The notes below the pieces were generated by a model. That model saw nothing but the letters and a program-made list of their open reading frames with translations, was not told where the DNA came from and did not search any database. A program made the position numbers and the translations under genes. A stretch of 20,438 nucleotides of DNA from a virus: positions 1 to 20,438 of the IMG/VR virus record IMGVR_UViG_3300037071_001215. One strand, written 5' to 3'. Below, piece after piece: positions 674 through 12,493 of this stretch (its first letter is position 1; every line of letters begins with the position of its first letter).

Positions 674-888
674 GAGGCCGTATTCAGATTGGCGACGTCG
701 TCACCGGCCCAGCCGGCGGCGAGCAGTGGACCGTGACCGCCGTCCGTGGCCCAAAGATCGAAGTCATGCGCGATCACACCGACTCCCGAGGTGTCAACTG
801 GATCGAACGGCGAGAAGTCTTCAGGCGGGACTGCCGAGTCGTCGGCATCCAGGAGCCCCTGGGCCTGTTCACGGAGACGGGCCTATGA
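670..888 (+). CDS. small hypothetical protein, 72 aa, possible SH3/KOW-like fold
   Basis: The ATG at 670 overlaps the stop of the methyltransferase gene, and the stop at 886-888 overlaps the ATG of the VRR-NUC gene, so the frame is coupled on both sides. The protein is short and rich in beta-type residues. It has the pattern GDVVTGPAGG then WTVTAVRGPKIEV, which resembles a small SH3-like or KOW-like barrel. I do not recognise a named family. No catalytic motif, membrane segment or cysteine pair is visible. Its location between a methyltransferase and a nuclease suggests an accessory DNA-metabolism role, which is only an inference. Confidence 0.7.
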   Translation: MRGRIQIGDVVTGPAGGEQWTVTAVRGPKIEVMRDHTDSRGVNWIERREVFRRDCRVVGIQEPLGLFTETGL

Positions 889-1271
889 CCGCAGATGCCC
901 CAAGAACGCCGCTCAAGCCCTCTACAGCCGTTTCTCTCAGGAAAACGGGTAGAGTGGCACCCCGCGTCAATCCGGCCGAATCTAAACCGATTCAGCAGAC
1001 TGAGCGGGCGTTCCAGGCATCTGTCATCCGGTACGCCGAGCTGATGGGCTGGACGTGCCACCACCACTACGACTCGCGGCGGTCATCCCCTGGTCTGCCG
1101 GACTTGCTACTCGTCCGCCGACCCCGCGTCGTCTGGGCAGAACTCAAGAGCGAACGCGGCCGGCTCACTCCAGACCAGCGCGCCTGGATCGAAGAACTGC
1201 GAGCCTGCGGCCAGGAAGTGTTTCTTTGGAGACCTTCAGACTGGGAGAAAATCGAACGTGTGCTTAGGTGA
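885..1271 (+). CDS. VRR-NUC domain nuclease
   Basis: The ATG at 885 is chosen because it overlaps the preceding stop (ATGA). Upstream in-frame starts would run through the preceding gene. The product is 128 aa. Residues 40-128 form a VRR-NUC (PD-(D/E)xK superfamily) nuclease: the conserved PGLPDLLL (Asp73), WAELKSE (Glu86, Lys88) and TPDQ (95-98) motifs are all present, ending in the family-typical WRPSDW segment. In phages this stand-alone nuclease usually lies among replication or recombination genes and is thought to cut branched DNA. The 3' end meets the antisense HNH gene, whose stop codon (1264-1266) lies inside this gene. A second, diverged copy of the last 18 or so codons lies beyond the HNH gene at 1897-1956, so the present C-terminus may have been acquired together with the HNH gene. 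Confidence 0.88.
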   Translation: MTADAPRTPLKPSTAVSLRKTGRVAPRVNPAESKPIQQTERAFQASVIRYAELMGWTCHHHYDSRRSSPGLPDLLLVRRPRVVWAELKSERGRLTPDQRAWIEELRACGQEVFLWRPSDWEKIERVLR

Positions 1272-1893
1272 CGTGTTTCCAGATGGCGCCTCTCTTGATG
1301 GCTCCAATAAGGCTGATGCTGACACCGAAGCGGTCTGCCAGGATCTTTTGGGTCTCGCCGGCCGCGCGGATCGTGCGCACGTCGTCTTCGGTAAGCTGCG
1401 CGCGGGGGTGGATCTCTCCGATCATCGGGCCAACGTGGGCGCCGGCTGCCCTTCGAGCGCGTTCCTTCCGCTCCTTCCCCTGAGCATTACGGCACGTTCG
1501 GCACCGGCGGGCTCCGGTCTTGGCGTCAATAATCAGGTTCTCTCCGCTGAGAGGATGACCGCCCGGGCACTCGGTGATAGCAGCCTTGGCCCTGCGAACG
1601 TTCTCGGCGTGGGTAACGGGCTCAAGGTGCCGCTCGTAGTTGACGCAATGACGGATTCGACAGAGATGGTCCAGGTCCGGCGTTTCCCTGGGCACTGGGC
1701 CGACGCCGAGCTGGTACGCGATGACGTGGACCTTCTGCATCCTGTGGCCCCGCTTCAAGTGAGCGTAGCCGTCTTCCCTGAGCGGGCCAGTCCATACCCA
1801 GCACGGGCCGAGGTCTGGACGGTGCGGCGGGATGGGGCCATTCAGGTCGACTCTGGCCCAGAAGAGGGGGTCGCGCGAGATGTCGATGCTCAT
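1264..1893 (-). CDS. HNH endonuclease 1 (HNH_3-type with C-terminal helix-turn-helix), antisense, probably mobile
   Basis: The product is 209 aa from the ATG at 1893; an in-frame ATG at 1908 would add five residues. The N-terminal block contains FWARVDLNGPIP and LGPCWVWTG (residues 11-36). The core DHLCRIRHC...HLEPVTHAENVRR (75-101) is the beta-beta-alpha-metal HNH_3 fold. A structural zinc site, CPGGH then CRTC (109-134), follows, and a C-terminal helix-turn-helix (about 170-205) ends in IWKHV. Such free-standing HNH proteins are typical phage homing-type endonucleases. One oddity is that the usual CVNPDHL is CVNYERHL, one residue longer between Asn and His. It is opposite to all neighbours, overlaps the end of the VRR-NUC gene by a few bases, and its start abuts a leftover VRR-NUC C-terminus. 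It is a clear paralogue of the HNH gene at 11625-12221. Confidence 0.9.
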   Translation of the reverse strand: MSIDISRDPLFWARVDLNGPIPPHRPDLGPCWVWTGPLREDGYAHLKRGHRMQKVHVIAYQLGVGPVPRETPDLDHLCRIRHCVNYERHLEPVTHAENVRRAKAAITECPGGHPLSGENLIIDAKTGARRCRTCRNAQGKERKERARRAAGAHVGPMIGEIHPRAQLTEDDVRTIRAAGETQKILADRFGVSISLIGAIKRGAIWKHVT

Positions 1894-1896
1894 GCG

Positions 1897-1956
1897 GGAG
1901 TATACCATTTCTGGCGCCCGGCCATGTGGCAGGACGTCGAGAGAATCCTGCGATGA
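1897..1956 (+). pseudogene. remnant of a VRR-NUC gene 3' end, displaced by the HNH insertion
   Basis: In the + frame that stops at 1954-1956, the last codons read VYHFWRPAMW then QDVERILR. The intact VRR-NUC upstream ends FLWRPSDW then EKIERVLR. Over 16 aligned residues, 8 are identical (W, R, P, W, E, R, L, R) and 4 more are conservative. The stop of the remnant overlaps the ATG of the next gene (ATGA at 1953), exactly the coupling seen elsewhere in this genome. This looks like the original end of the VRR-NUC gene, separated from its body by the antisense HNH gene. Confidence 0.68.
1899..1907 (-). promoter_or_regulatory. extended -10 promoter of HNH endonuclease 1
   Basis: Reading the minus strand, TGGTATACT matches an extended -10 element (TGnTATAAT) at 8 of 8 defined positions except the fifth base of the hexamer. 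The HNH start codon at 1893 lies only five bases beyond the hexamer, so the transcript would be leaderless or nearly so, in line with the absence of a Shine-Dalgarno sequence. No convincing -35 is seen. The paralogue HNH2 has the same element (TGGTATAAT). Confidence 0.5.
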
Positions 1957-2579
1957 AGACCCAGGAATACGCGCCAGACCGGCGCGGCTACCGAAACCCC
2001 GCCCATACGCAGGGGATGGCGGGGCTCTGCAATTGCAGTACCTGCTATCAGCGGCGCTGGTGGACCCCAGAGCGGCGGTCGGCGCGAGCTGCGGCGATGC
2101 GCCAGCAGTGGGCGAGCGGCCGGCGGGATGGTCAGCCGCACTCGAACGTCCGGCGCGCGTCACACTGGACGCCGGAGCAGGACGCCTCCTTGCGATCGCT
2201 TGCCGGGAAGCACGATCTGCCGGAACTTGCGGCGCTGATGAGCGCACTGTTCCACGTACCACGTACCACCCAGGCGATTCACCGACGGTGTCAGCGGCTC
2301 GGTATCTCCAGGCTACAACTTCGCCCGTACACTACGAGCGAAGTGGCGCGGATGTTGGGGATGGGCATAACAACCTTCCGCACCCGCATCGTCCTCCCCG
2401 GCCTCCTCCAGTTCGTATGGTGGCGCGGCGGCAGCGCCGGGACGCGCGTCTACCGTCGTGCCGATCTTGAGCGATTCATACGCCTGCACCCCGGTAGCTA
2501 CGACCCAGAGCGTATCCGAGACTCGCAACTTTCAGTGCTGGCGCGCGCGGTGACACGCGGTCGACTGCGGACTGGCTGA
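1953..2579 (+). CDS. DNA-binding protein with SANT/Myb-like and MerR-like helix-turn-helix domains
   Basis: The ATG at 1953 overlaps the stop of the VRR-NUC remnant, so this start is preferred over the in-frame ATG at 1926. The product is 208 aa. A Cys cluster (C26, C28, C31; CNCSTC) is near the N-terminus. A SANT/Myb-like or recombinase-like helical domain begins at HWTPEQDASL (71-119). A second helix-turn-helix of the MerR/excisionase type follows (YTTSEVARML through YRRADLERFI, about 126-176), with a beta-wing between. The tail is basic. Two DNA-binding domains and no catalytic motif point to a regulator or DNA-architecture protein, and its place just before the terminase genes would suit a late-gene regulator. 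That role is inferred, not shown. Confidence 0.75.
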   Translation: MKTQEYAPDRRGYRNPAHTQGMAGLCNCSTCYQRRWWTPERRSARAAAMRQQWASGRRDGQPHSNVRRASHWTPEQDASLRSLAGKHDLPELAALMSALFHVPRTTQAIHRRCQRLGISRLQLRPYTTSEVARMLGMGITTFRTRIVLPGLLQFVWWRGGSAGTRVYRRADLERFIRLHPGSYDPERIRDSQLSVLARAVTRGRLRTG

Positions 2580-4288: not shown

Positions 4289-6325
4289 GTGGGCATCTTC
4301 GATTGGCTCGGGCCGCTGAACGCCGGGAGTAATAAATCGCGCGGCTGGGGCGACTTGCCGTCATCAGTAATAAAATTGCCCGAGACGAAAGCATCCTGGA
4401 CGATTGACGATTACCGCGCTGTCATCGTCTCGCCGCTGGTGCACGGCCCGGGTGCTACCGATCTCCTGGCCGGCGCCTACGGGGCTGCTGCCAACAGCGC
4501 GGTGTTCGCCTGCCTGACGGCCATCGCCTCAGCCTACGTCGAGGCGCCGCTCACGGTCTACCGACAGATGAGTCCGAAGGACCGAGAGCCACAGTTCGAC
4601 AGCCCGCTTCAATCATTGCTCGACTACCCGAATCCGGCGCTCGATATGCTGGAAATCATGGGCTGGGTGCAGTGCGCCAAGCACGTCGACGGGAACGCCT
4701 ACCTGCGGAAGATGCGCGCCGGCAACGACCTGACCGGCAACGTCGTCGAGCTGTGGCCGATCAGCCCGAGCAGGCTTGAGCCACGGACGATCCGCGATTC
4801 TGGCGACTTCATCAGCTTCTATCGCTACTACATCCGACCGGGCGTCTACGAGGACATCCCGACCGAAAACATCATTCACTTTCGGATGGGCCTCGACGAC
4901 AAGGATCATCGGCTCGGCATCTCCCCGTTGAAGCGACTGGTCCGCGAGGTTAGCAGCGACGACCAGGCCACCAGATACGCCGACCGCCTACTGGCGAACC
5001 TCGCCATTAATGGCCTGAGCATGGAGTTCGACAAGGACACCGGCCCGATTGATCGGGCGACCGCCGACGAGATGAAATCCAGGATTCAATCGGCCTACTC
5101 GGGCGACAACGTCGGCGCCGTCTCGGTGCTCAGCCCTGGCGCCAAGCTCGTGCAGCATGGATTCTCGCCTGAGCAGATGGACCTCAAGGTCTTGCACCGG
5201 GTGCCAGAGGAGCGTATCTCTGCCGTGTTGCAGGTACCTGCCATCGTCGCCGGTCTCGGCGCTGGCCTTGACCGCTCGACGTTCGCCAACTACGAAGAGG
5301 CGAATCAGTCATTTATCGAGAAAACGATCCTGTCTCTCTACCGTGCCGACGACAAGAAGCTAACCCATAGCCTCGCGGTCGACTTCACATCGGACCGCAA
5401 GATCAGCATTGCCCACGACATCACTCAGATGCGCGCCTTGCAGGACGACGAGGACAAGAAGGCGACGCGGCTGGCTGCTTACGTCGCTGCCGGCATCCTC
5501 GATGTCAACGAGGCGCGTGCCGAGATCGGCCGGGAGCCTCGCGCTCCGTCGCCCCCGGCAGACGCAGCGGCTCCGGCGCTTCCGTCCTCCCCTCCGGAAG
5601 CGCGGAGCCGGCCGCGCATCCTCACCCTGCCGAATCGGGAACTCAAGAGTCCGGACGACCTGCCCGGCCTGTTCGGGCGCCTCAAGGACAACCTGGAGCC
5701 CGACTGGTTCTCGGAGATCGAATCGTTCCTGACCGCACAACTCAGGAGGGTCAATGCTCGACTCCGTGCTGGCGGCGATACGGCGGAGGGACTGGTCGCC
5801 GAGGGCGAGGCACAACTGCTCGGTGAGACACTTACCCCTCTCCAGACCGCCCTGTTGTCCGACGTGTCACGCCTTGTGGTCGCGGAGCTGGCGGTGGCTT
5901 TCGATCTGGACGACGCGGCATCTCGCGCATACCTGCGAGATGCCGGTTCCAACATTGTTGGCATCACCGAGACGACGCGCGACGCGGTCAGAGCCGCCCT
6001 CATCGAGGGCCAGCAGGCCGGCGAGGGAATCCCCCAACTCGCCGCCCGCCTCCAGCAACTCCCCGCCTTCAACCGCGCTCGCGCCATCACCGTTAGTCGA
6101 ACTGAACTCGGGCATGCAGCGAATGTCGCAGCAGTTGCGAACTACCGCGCGAGTGGTGTCGTTGTTGGCGTCCGGGTCTTCGACGGCGACTACGACGCCG
6201 AGTGCATCGCGATGAACGGCCGGACGTTCACCCTCGACCAGACACCGCCGACCTTGCAGCACCCTCGTTGCCTGCGGGCGTTCGCGCCGATCACCGACGT
6301 CAGCGAGTTAGTGAGGTCAGCGTGA
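4289..6325 (+). CDS. portal protein fused to a MuF (SPP1 gp7-like) head morphogenesis domain
   Basis: The GTG at 4289 has GAGAGGGG about 8 bases upstream and gives GIFDWLG, a common portal N-terminus; the open frame further upstream overlaps the terminase gene. The product is 678 aa. Residues 1 to about 430 are an HK97-type portal: VFACLTAIASAYVEAPLTVY, PNPALDMLE, then GNAYL, GISPLKRL and the late segment with VPAIVAG and NYEEAN. A Pro/Ala-rich linker follows. The C-terminal about 220 residues are MuF-like, with the RTELGHAANVAAV motif (about 604-616) and HPRCLRAF near the end. The portal forms the DNA gate at one capsid vertex, and MuF proteins are minor head proteins that are usually separate. 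No stop or start splits the two parts. Confidence 0.93.
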   Translation: MGIFDWLGPLNAGSNKSRGWGDLPSSVIKLPETKASWTIDDYRAVIVSPLVHGPGATDLLAGAYGAAANSAVFACLTAIASAYVEAPLTVYRQMSPKDREPQFDSPLQSLLDYPNPALDMLEIMGWVQCAKHVDGNAYLRKMRAGNDLTGNVVELWPISPSRLEPRTIRDSGDFISFYRYYIRPGVYEDIPTENIIHFRMGLDDKDHRLGISPLKRLVREVSSDDQATRYADRLLANLAINGLSMEFDKDTGPIDRATADEMKSRIQSAYSGDNVGAVSVLSPGAKLVQHGFSPEQMDLKVLHRVPEERISAVLQVPAIVAGLGAGLDRSTFANYEEANQSFIEKTILSLYRADDKKLTHSLAVDFTSDRKISIAHDITQMRALQDDEDKKATRLAAYVAAGILDVNEARAEIGREPRAPSPPADAAAPALPSSPPEARSRPRILTLPNRELKSPDDLPGLFGRLKDNLEPDWFSEIESFLTAQLRRVNARLRAGGDTAEGLVAEGEAQLLGETLTPLQTALLSDVSRLVVAELAVAFDLDDAASRAYLRDAGSNIVGITETTRDAVRAALIEGQQAGEGIPQLAARLQQLPAFNRARAITVSRTELGHAANVAAVANYRASGVVVGVRVFDGDYDAECIAMNGRTFTLDQTPPTLQHPRCLRAFAPITDVSELVRSA

Positions 6326-10706: not shown

Positions 10707-10993
10707 TGTCAGCTTACCAGCGGGGTCAGTCGGTCAGGCTCTACTGCTCGTTTGCCGATGCCAACGCAGTCGCGGCCAACCCGACGACCGTTACGTGTGC
10801 GGTCGAAGAGCCGGACGGGACAGAGACGACCTACACCACGCCGGTGATCACCAACCCGTCAACCGGCACCTTTCAGTTGATCGTGGTGCCCGACCAGAGC
10901 GGGATGTACTCCTACCGCTGGGAAGGCACCACCGGCACCAGCGTTGCCGTCGACGAGGATCAGTTCCACGTGCTCGGGTCGGCCTTCCCGTGA
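10706..10993 (+). CDS. small Ig-like phage protein
   Basis: The ATG at 10706 overlaps the previous stop (TGATG) with GGAGG about 6 bases upstream. The product is 95 aa. The pattern is a short beta-sandwich: YQRGQSVRLYCSF, then TVTCAVEEPDGTETTYTTPV, GTFQLIVVPDQSGMYSYRWEG and DQFHVLGS. It resembles small Ig-like or carboxypeptidase-regulatory-like domains in phage head and tail accessory proteins. The stop overlaps the GTG of the first glycosyltransferase (GTGA at 10990). It probably acts as a particle-surface protein; this is inferred. Confidence 0.72.
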   Translation: MSAYQRGQSVRLYCSFADANAVAANPTTVTCAVEEPDGTETTYTTPVITNPSTGTFQLIVVPDQSGMYSYRWEGTTGTSVAVDEDQFHVLGSAFP

Positions 10994-11628
10994 GGCCGCT
11001 GGTGTCCGTGTGTACCCCGACCTGGCAGCGGCCGGAGCTGCTGGCCGAGACGATCCGCCATCTTCGGGAGCAGGACTATCCGAATATCGAGCATGTCGTG
11101 ATCTCGGATGGGCCGGACGATGGGCTGCTGGAGCGGATGCGTTGGCTTAGGAGCCGACCCGTCAAGAAAGCCGGTGATTGGTCCGCTCGCTCAATCCAGC
11201 TCGGCCGCAACTGGTCGGGGCTGATGCCGTCGTCGTTCGGGATCGCCCCGCTGCTGGTCGGCTACCTGATGGCTCGCGGCGAGTACGTTGCCAATCTCTC
11301 CGACGATGACAGGATGAGCCCAGACTACATCAGCCGCCTAGTTACGTTGCTCGAAGAGACGGGAGCGGACTTCGCCTACAGCAAGGCGCGGTTCTACTGG
11401 TACGACCAGCGGCCGGAGGACGGCTACGACATTGGGACCGACCCGCCCCAGCATGGGCAGATCACGAGCATGGTGGCGCGGACATCCTGCTTCTGGCGGT
11501 TCGGGATGCCGCGCTGGTCTTCCCACCCGGTTGATTGGTCCCTGGTGCAGGATTGGATCTCGGCCGGTGCGAAGTGGGCATTCCTGCCGGAGGTGCTGTT
11601 CTGGCACCGAGCGGACCAGAGAGGCTAG
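10990..11628 (+). CDS. glycosyltransferase family 2 (GT-A), copy 1
   Basis: The GTG at 10990 overlaps the previous stop. The product is 212 aa. The N-terminal nucleotide-sugar fold begins VSVCTPTWQRPELL, followed by NIEHVVISDGPDDG and the metal/sugar-nucleotide motif SDDD (DDD at 105-107). A C-terminal acceptor-side region ends in FLPEVLFWHRADQ. Family 2 enzymes transfer a sugar from a nucleotide donor; there is no membrane segment, so it is cytoplasmic. It is a paralogue of the gene at 13969-14622, sharing ISDGPD, the GTDPPxxGQIT-type segment, ADFAYSxA and the C-terminal PEhL...H(R/K)AD ending. Its TAG stop is palindromically shared with the TAG of the antisense HNH2 gene (CTAG at 11625-11628), so its 3' end may have been replaced at that insertion. 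Confidence 0.88.
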   Translation: MRPLVSVCTPTWQRPELLAETIRHLREQDYPNIEHVVISDGPDDGLLERMRWLRSRPVKKAGDWSARSIQLGRNWSGLMPSSFGIAPLLVGYLMARGEYVANLSDDDRMSPDYISRLVTLLEETGADFAYSKARFYWYDQRPEDGYDIGTDPPQHGQITSMVARTSCFWRFGMPRWSSHPVDWSLVQDWISAGAKWAFLPEVLFWHRADQRG

Positions 11629-12221
11629 ACGTGCTTCCAGTTCTTACGCTGAATCACCGCATACAGCGTGCTGGTATTGATGCCCATCTGGTGCGCCAGC
11701 GCCTTGACCGTGATGTTGCCCTCAGCGTGACGGCGTCGCGCCTCGATCACGATGGCTTCGGTCAGTTTCGCTACGGGCGTGGACTCGCCCCGTCGAACGA
11801 GGTCAGGTCGCCGCACCATGTAATGTCGCTCGCCGCGCGCGCGACTATCGGGCCGTGTTCTCGAAGAGTGCTGGTCACCCTTAGCCGAGCGCCCCTTGGC
11901 GACCATGTCGGCCTGGTTCTGAGCAATCGTCCCAGCGAAGAGATGGTCAGGCCGGACGCAGGCGATGTAGCCACCGTCGCAGCGGTGCAGAACGCAAGGC
12001 TTGTCGGCTGGCAGTTCGCCGTAGGTCAGGATGTAGGCGACGACGCTGGCGACGTACGTCCGACTGCGAAAGTGAACCTGCCCCCGTCCGTCAGGATGAC
12101 GCGATCCTGTCCAGATCCAACAGGGGCCAAGCTCGGGGCAGTGGGCCGGGATCGGGCCGTTCCGATCAACCTTGGCCCAGAACGTCGTTACGCGCTGCTC
12201 GGGCGTATACTTGGCTGGCAT
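11625..12221 (-). CDS. HNH endonuclease 2 with C-terminal helix-turn-helix, antisense, probably mobile
   Basis: The product is 198 aa from the ATG at 12221, with a strong Shine-Dalgarno (GAGGGGG, about 7 bases upstream on the minus strand). It shares with HNH1 the N-terminal FWAKVDRNGPIP and LGPCWIWTG (14-39) and the C-terminal helix-turn-helix ending NWKHV. The HNH core is CVLHRCDGG...ACVRPDHLFAGT...QNQADM (76-106), ending in an AKGR segment. The usual Asn of CVNPDHL is Arg90 here, a possible loss or change of activity. It is opposite to all flanking genes and sits at the 3' end of a glycosyltransferase, with the two stop codons overlapping. Such HNH genes are typical phage homing-type elements. 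The HNH1 paralogue sits in an equivalent position at another gene's 3' end. Confidence 0.9.
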   Translation of the reverse strand: MPAKYTPEQRVTTFWAKVDRNGPIPAHCPELGPCWIWTGSRHPDGRGQVHFRSRTYVASVVAYILTYGELPADKPCVLHRCDGGYIACVRPDHLFAGTIAQNQADMVAKGRSAKGDQHSSRTRPDSRARGERHYMVRRPDLVRRGESTPVAKLTEAIVIEARRRHAEGNITVKALAHQMGINTSTLYAVIQRKNWKHV

Positions 12222-12241
12222 CGAGATTCCCCCTCGGTGTC

Positions 12242-12271
12242 GCCCCCGGCCGTTGACGCGGTAGCGGGGGC
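12242..12271 (-). promoter_or_regulatory. stem-loop in the predicted 5' leader of HNH endonuclease 2
   Basis: On the minus strand GCCCCCG (12271-12265) can pair with CGGGGGC (12248-12242) around a 16-base loop. It lies between the predicted -10 element and the ribosome binding site of HNH2. It might modulate expression or act as a barrier to + strand transcription; no T-run follows on either strand. Confidence 0.35.
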
Positions 12272-12282
12272 TTCGTGCGTCA

Positions 12283-12291
12283 ATTATACCA
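12283..12291 (-). promoter_or_regulatory. extended -10 promoter of HNH endonuclease 2
   Basis: The minus strand reads TGGTATAAT, a perfect extended -10 element, about 62 bases upstream of the HNH2 start. No convincing -35 is visible, which extended -10 promoters tolerate. In such a GC-rich genome this AT-rich element stands out. It lets the antisense gene be expressed independently of the + strand operon. Confidence 0.6.
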
Positions 12292-12296
12292 GTTCG

Positions 12297-12317
12297 CTTC
12301 GAGTGGATCAGCCATGA
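12297..12317 (+). pseudogene. possible remnant of a glycosyltransferase 3' end beyond HNH2
   Basis: The + frame ending at 12315-12317 reads LRVDQP, compared with HRADQRG at the end of the glycosyltransferase upstream. The 12 bases CGAGTGGATCAG match CGAGCGGACCAG at 10 positions. The stop overlaps the next gene's ATG (ATGA), as at the HNH1 locus. The match is short and could be chance, so it is mainly supported by the parallel with HNH1. Confidence 0.32.
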
Positions 12318-12493
12318 GCGAGATGGGGCGCTGCCGCGACTGTCGCTGGTGGGCCGTGCATGAATATGAGGAGGAACACGGGGATTGTCGTCTGGCTGAG
12401 ACTGATCCGCCGTCGTTGCTCTGGGCAGAGTTTGAGGGCGCCGTAATCACGCTGGCCGTCTTCGGGTGCGTGCTATTCGAGGCGAAGCCGTGA
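12314..12493 (+). CDS. small Cys-containing hypothetical protein, 59 aa
   Basis: The ATG at 12314 overlaps a stop codon in the style of this genome (ATGA). The product is 59 aa with C7-x2-C10, C25 and C52 (GRCRDCRWW, HGDCRLAE, FGCVLFE). This pattern resembles small zinc-ribbon-like proteins that I recall from phage and environmental genomes, where four cysteines bind one metal. No function is recognised. The stop overlaps the GTG of the next small gene (GTGA at 12490). It is the first of a run of tiny proteins between glycosyltransferases. Confidence 0.65.
   Translation: MSEMGRCRDCRWWAVHEYEEEHGDCRLAETDPPSLLWAEFEGAVITLAVFGCVLFEAKP

Follow-up and report, generated by a model that had tools for sequence, protein, structure and literature searches.

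HNH genes of bacteriophages found with apparently replaced 3′ ends of neighbouring genes, a possible natural counterpart of home-and-rescue drives

We analyzed a 20,438-base IMG/VR phage fragment (IMGVR_UViG_3300037071_001215; hereafter, the window) in which an antisense HNH gene, HNH1, stands between the end of a VRR-NUC gene and a second sequence resembling that end (Table 1). The VRR-NUC gene (885-1271, plus strand) matched its family profile, PF08774, above the curated cut-off (38.9 vs 23.8 bits), and its product has the C-terminus ...VFLWRPSDWEKIERVLR*. The TAA stop of HNH1 lies within the last codons of VRR-NUC. HNH1 matched PF13392 (HNH_3 endonuclease family) with 31.4 bits, above the curated cut-off of 24.8, and phrog_826 with an E-value of 4.3e-40; its C-terminus is a helix-turn-helix with WKHV as the last residues. 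A fold search of the HNH1 structure model (Foldseek against the PDB) gave I-PpoI as the best hit at 0.087 and nothing at E ≤ 0.001, and a phmmer search of HNH against the PDB returned no match. In addition, the pattern TGNTATAMT occurs at two sites in the window, directly 5′ of HNH1 and of a second antisense HNH gene, HNH2, with an expected count of 0.07 and two sites in none of 100 shuffles; the pattern was, however, picked only after both sites had been seen. No sigma-70 hexamer pair was found by the scanner in 1150-2050.

Table 1. Features of the two HNH loci in the window.
Feature	Position	Strand	Evidence or remark
VRR-NUC gene body, common to HNH-free relative L001	885..1189	+	PF08774; L001 identity
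Functional replacement 3′ end of VRR-NUC	1190..1271	+	Left boundary within 1190-1213 inferred; L001 identity falls at 1190
HNH1, putative free-standing homing endonuclease, antisense	1264..1893	-	PF13392; phrog_826; model pLDDT 87
Extended -10-like element TGGTATACT	1899..1907	-	5 nt ahead of HNH1 ATG; post hoc pattern
Remnant of native VRR-NUC 3′ end, FWRPAMWQDVERILR*	1909..1956	+	48 nt; stop overlaps next gene
Next gene, phrog_323	1953..2579	+	ATG overlaps remnant stop
Glycosyltransferase family 2 gene, body	10990..11577	+	PF00535 60.5 bits; start codon inferred
Glycosyltransferase 3′ end travelling with HNH2	11578..11628	+	Boundary approximate; L024 identity jump
HNH2, second antisense HNH gene	11625..12221	-	PF13392 19.4 bits, below cut-off; phrog_1872 E 2e-23
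Extended -10-like element TGGTATAAT, upstream of HNH2	12283..12291	-	TGNTATAMT pattern
Probable remnant of native glycosyltransferase 3′ end, YTSSLRVDQP*	12285..12317	+	Gap-free with L077 tail
Next gene after second remnant	12315..12493	+	ATG overlaps remnant stop; same gene in L078

The sequence-only reading had claimed that two diverged VRR-NUC C-termini flank HNH1, and that the stop of the downstream copy overlaps the start of the next gene. Both claims were borne out: the two 16-mers share eight identical residues, as stated, and the TGA of the remnant overlaps the ATG at 1953. When stop-anchored 16-mers were compared, the functional tail FLWRPSDWEKIERVLR scored 57 against the remnant, and the best non-VRR-NUC 16-mer scored 16 against the functional tail (17,482 stop-anchored 16-mers from 76 sequences). 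In 3,000 dinucleotide shuffles of 1894-2100, the highest score was 33, so none came up to 57. A chance resemblance of the tails is rejected by this background and the shuffles. Conversely, an unanchored local BLAST screen gave the HNH1 tail pair 26.9 bits, equalled by 22 of 1,980 mismatched pairs and hence at noise level. Because that screen cannot tell the pair from noise, the case rests on stop-codon anchoring and on the relatives.

We compared the VRR-NUC gene with its relatives, eight loci from viral_contigs. The nearest, L001 (87% amino acid identity) and L002 (63%), have no HNH gene at the 3′ end, and their tails, YIWRPSQWQDVERILK and FLWRPSMWQDVERILK, both end in WQDVERILK*, which is the remnant type. 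This was the prediction made for uninterrupted homologues, and the finding that would have refuted it, both tails in an HNH-free genome, was made in none of the eight relatives. The window and L001 share 298 of 327 nt over 885-1211, including 120/120 at 1070-1189; from there to the gene end, identity per 20 nt is 14/20, 14/20, 10/20 and 12/20. Over its last 48 nt, the remnant agrees with L002 at 35 positions, with L001 at 33 and with the functional tail at only 26, and the functional tail agrees with L006 at 32, L005 at 28, L002 at 27 and L001 at 26. Since identity to L001 drops at the functional tail, and the remnant is nearer to the tails of L001 and L002, it is the functional tail that is foreign and the remnant that is native. 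The collapse of identity and the tail type of the relatives thus support the proposal that a replacement 3′ end from a relative displaced the original tail, with cleavage and homing inferred.

The origin of the replacement tail was not recovered, in that a degenerate pattern for its donor had no match in viral_contigs. In absolute number, recoding of this tail is a weak signal (4 of 8 codons against L001, and 8 of 11 against L002), and natural-looking variants occur in L005 (WRPSDIEKITRILR) and L006 (WRPSDWAEIEEVLG). Its GC3 is 9/19, whereas the gene body has 0.70 and HNH1 has 0.78, and only 4 of 2,575 other 19-codon windows were as low. The gene after VRR-NUC in L001 and L002 differs from that in the window, whose next gene is absent from G001 (the record containing L001) and G002. 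G001 has one other HNH gene, far away and with 33% identity.

Two tails of one family in the same orientation could also have arisen if two VRR-NUC genes once stood in a row and HNH replaced most of the second. We consider such a tandem duplication highly improbable, because the functional first tail departs from the relatives and the isolated second tail keeps their type, which makes the first tail the foreign one; moreover, no tandem pair was present in the eight loci examined, and the empty site of a methyltransferase locus described below holds only one gene. The tandem origin was rejected on these grounds. Group I introns often contain HNH genes, and the tails could in principle be exon-like repeats around a self-splicing intron or intein. 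This can hardly be maintained, as Rfam gave no match at the gathering score in the window, L074 or L093, HNH1 is antisense to its target, and a stop codon closes the first tail; this candidate was also rejected.

HNH2 terminates at the stop of a glycosyltransferase gene. Compared with L024 (in record G001), the window has 23, 18 and 25 identities per 30 nt just before 11593 and then 30/30; identity is 179/180 over 11593-11772 and 117/120 over 12163-12282, so that the tail and HNH2 form a single high-identity island. HNH2-free relatives (L077, L078 and L079) end in TF[ST]HRLDQ(L). The second remnant aligns without gaps to the native tail of L077, VTFSHRLDQL, with 16/33 nt identical; 7 of 20,250 stop-anchored 10-mers score that high against the L077 tail, and three of the seven are the remnant (twice) and L077 itself. 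In L078, the uninterrupted glycosyltransferase is followed by the same gene whose ATG this remnant overlaps in the window, and in L024 the remnant precedes the next gene found in L077. The remnant is short and does not resemble the functional glycosyltransferase tail of the window (gap-free score, −14), and the replacement tail has no GC3 shift (0.81). Judged from these alignments, HNH2 probably repeats the tail-replacing architecture on the glycosyltransferase gene. In L024, HNH2 (about 2280) has an internal loss of about 362 nt (window ~11776-12137), while the tail and remnant persist; this loss is decay after fixation.

The same design appears in mycobacteriophages at a C5 methyltransferase gene. 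In SkinnyPete, the methyltransferase (PF00145), ending in NAVTPCAARDLVGVVAQSLGVSA, is followed by an HNH gene in the same direction, then by NAVTPPAARDLVGVVAESLGVTS and the next gene. Piper2020, TChen and Phayonce have no HNH gene at the methyltransferase end, where their tail is NAVTPPAARDLVGVVAESLGVAS*. C5 methyltransferases share the conserved motif QxGNxVxP. The HNH protein of SkinnyPete (gp53) had no Pfam match at E 0.01 and matched an HMM built from A3 at E ≤ 1e-6. Between SkinnyPete and Piper2020, 23 of 28 tail residues are kept, and codons differ at 20 of the 23 identical residues, whereas in the 300 nt before the tail they differ at 21 of 94. Furthermore, GC3 of the SkinnyPete tail (0.25) is lower than in all 574 other 28-codon windows of the gene and HNH (minimum, 0.54), with values of 0.88 for the methyltransferase body, 0.67 for HNH and 0.86 for the remnant.

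Four phages, SkinnyPete, DocMcStuffins, Awesomesauce and Misha28, have an identical tail (87/87 nt) and HNH gene (588/588 nt), whereas the methyltransferase body of SkinnyPete differs from those of the other three at 42/900 nt. Their remnants are pairwise identical at 58-66 of 69 nt (3 to 11 differences), and the flanks beyond are mostly unrelated in pairs (17-34/100), except for SkinnyPete and Awesomesauce (98/100). The Misha28 remnant is the TChen native tail (69/69). From the HNH stop on, Misha28 and TChen are 99.857% identical over 700 nt, and left of the cassette they are 92.9% identical over 1,889 nt; the tail and HNH gene are absent in TChen. This pair thus presents a presence/absence polymorphism with a clean empty site, consisting of a single gene, and an exact right junction. 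Because identity is nearly complete rightward and 92.9% leftward, the right junction is recipient-specific and the left is not. The native tail and its overlap with the same next ATG can be checked at this target and at HNH2. TootsiePop and the Gordonia phages Posh and DumpsterDude were left out of this sequence comparison. Overall, the comparison supports well, as far as sequences can, the presence of the same design at the methyltransferase.

Related HNH genes also occur in other settings. In EvePickles, which speaks against the design being general for this HNH family, an HNH gene 58% identical to that of SkinnyPete adjoins a related methyltransferase whose tail type is unchanged; no tail recoding (GC3, 0.64) or remnant was detected there. 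In the Gordonia phages Bradissa (L071) and Wrigley (L099), an HNH gene 72% identical to that of SkinnyPete is followed by a methyltransferase-tail remnant, and the gene upstream of HNH is an unrelated hypothetical one. This is an orphaned cassette.

We consider it likely that HNH1 encodes a free-standing phage homing endonuclease and that its mobile unit takes in a replacement 3′ end for the target gene. In the proposed mechanism, the endonuclease would cut the native VRR-NUC tail in a relative without the element. Repair off the element-bearing genome, inferred from the junctions, would copy the VRR-NUC body, the replacement tail and HNH, and would rejoin at the native tail, leaving it behind as the remnant, which begins at GN|AVTP in the methyltransferase and just before WRP in VRR-NUC; the corresponding right junction is exact in Misha28 and TChen. 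As the sequence shows, the replacement tail is now the end of the target gene, which still codes for a full protein; rescue of the target is inferred. Since its DNA is unlike that of the native tail, the replacement tail would be expected to resist cutting and to be unable to pair with the broken native end. Repair, it is inferred, must then continue across HNH as far as the remnant, the presumed homology arm on the right. Recoding of the tail would thus serve two purposes, as an uncut site and as a sequence with which the broken recipient end cannot pair.

Alternatively, the arrangement may be a passive by-product, in which HNH and flanking coding sequence were co-converted from a diverged relative and joined inside the old tail, the divergence reflecting donor distance with no selection for recoding. 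Co-conversion of flanks is standard in phage homing, according to the portion of PMC2988022 available; the glycosyltransferase tail shows no AT shift, and the VRR-NUC tail has its natural-looking variants in L005 and L006. SkinnyPete speaks against this explanation: its protein is nearly unchanged, yet nearly all codons at the identical tail residues differ, and low GC3 is limited to the tail, sparing the body and HNH. A simple distant or AT-rich donor is thus insufficient for SkinnyPete, and we regard the passive by-product as possible but rather doubtful. Selection for recoding, which the home-and-rescue reading would involve, is nevertheless inferred.

We screened for further cases. A stop-anchored duplication screen of 45 non-redundant HNH ORFs with flanks flagged two, SkinnyPete (63) and HNH1 (58), the next value being 26. 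In its null (n = 3,944), from which L003, a copy of the window, was excluded, the values of 58 and one of 36 came from real homologues (the methyltransferase tails of SkinnyPete and EvePickles against the Bradissa remnant), and the rest reached 38. This screen is not sensitive, as it missed HNH2 and a possible 5′ case, and with only 2 of 45 ORFs flagged, the design is not general for this HNH family. In an unanchored flank-versus-flank screen, SkinnyPete stood out with 40 bits (0 of 1,980 mismatched pairs were as good); otherwise, GC-rich frames of low complexity drown the signal in such comparisons. Scanning genome_contigs more widely for HNH gave one locus, and among 400 genomes from the same phylum as this locus, seven had an HNH match and seven a VRR-NUC match (E ≤ 1e-8).

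Exchange of 5′ ends is also possible. In L087 (G062:C106), at about 4640-5714, an HNH gene is immediately preceded by a peptide that resembles the N-terminus of VRR-NUC (9.2 bits, E 0.033, against VRR-NUC model positions 6-34), and the end of the HNH gene overlaps a complete VRR-NUC gene; L087 is possibly a mirror-image cassette that swaps the 5′ end. In L002, an HNH gene of PF01844 lies just upstream of VRR-NUC (about 4560-5303), and the front half of this VRR-NUC is diverged from that of the window, with 81-82% identity in the flanks, possibly another 5′ swap. T7-like phages with related HNH genes showed no tail duplication. In several of those examined (L064-L070), endonuclease I has a longer annotated start that is overlapped by the end of the HNH gene, and these starts are a further possible place for 5′ swaps. 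The broader proposition, for which we see the arguments as evenly balanced, is that phage HNH genes repeatedly become natural home-and-rescue drives, in which a synonymously recoded gene end would neither be cut nor offer the broken recipient end a repair template and the old end would be the distal homology arm; 3′ ends and possibly 5′ ends (the candidate being L087) would be swapped.

The layout has a precedent in the mORFs of fungal mitochondria, where, in the accessible part of PMC3630166, C-terminal duplication is described for atp6, atp9, cox2 and nad3 of Glomus sp. and atp6 of Allomyces macrogynus. As in the phage cases, a foreign C-terminus is in-frame on the host gene, followed by an endonuclease ORF and the native C-terminus downstream, and the inserted and native tails of fungal atp6 are described there as differing mostly by silent changes. 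The phage cases therefore share the in-frame foreign C-terminus upstream of an endonuclease ORF and the native C-terminus downstream. However, mORFs, as that portion presents them, are LAGLIDADG or GIY-YIG enzymes in fungal mitochondrial DNA, whereas the phage genes encode HNH enzymes in double-stranded DNA phages, and two are antisense. Unlike mORFs as described in that text, the phage cases include cultured phages with an exact empty site and, in one case, strong codon change confined to the tail. Because the enzyme is HNH and the host a phage, we say that the system works like an mORF and do not file it as one.

Among phage systems, the free-standing homing endonucleases of T4-like phages (Seg and Mob) are likewise stand-alone genes that spread with co-conversion of flanks; the accessible text of PMC2988022 describes intergenic insertion and co-conversion, with no carried replacement gene end and no word with the stem "duplicat". 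Carried replacement ends are not mentioned in the available portions of PMC2988022, PMC10448857 and PMC12724721 either, and no phage report of a tail-replacing homing cassette was found in the literature, although most subscription journals were not covered. The excerpts available of PMC11855218 (see also PMC9957025) report the ShiLan domain, an HNH inserted in a mycobacteriophage methylase with disjunct distribution, whose first 11 residues resemble the 11 after the insertion site, which the authors, within these excerpts, leave unexplained. As presented in PMC11855218, the methylase and HNH differ from ours, and translation continues in frame through the insertion with no stop. The ShiLan region had no tblastn match (E 1e-3) to the SkinnyPete HNH or to HNH1 or HNH2 of the window, and the SkinnyPete methyltransferase matched only another ShiLan gene region, not gp65. 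A short replacement tail like those described here is one possible reading of the 11-residue repeat in ShiLan gp65 (JN020143, L100). Engineered HomeR drives, as far as the part of PMC7968924 at hand goes, resemble the phage cassette in that a nuclease and a recoded, uncleavable end of the target gene are carried together; HomeR is engineered CRISPR in insects, whereas the phage arrangement is natural and its drive activity has not yet been demonstrated.

The usual view is that free-standing homing genes insert between genes and so do no damage. With a cassette that rescues its target, a homing gene could strike conserved coding sequence and yet leave the gene functional, and rescue cassettes would explain sharp differences at gene ends between close phages. 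Engineered home-and-rescue gene drives would have their natural counterpart in this phage arrangement, of which the mycobacterial version is clearer than that of the window. The cassette-bearing phages SkinnyPete, Awesomesauce, Misha28 and DocMcStuffins, set against the cassette-free Piper2020 and TChen, make the proposal open to direct test in a laboratory strain, and this set would be a natural test of a design rule of synthetic gene drives, namely that the rescue copy must be recoded.
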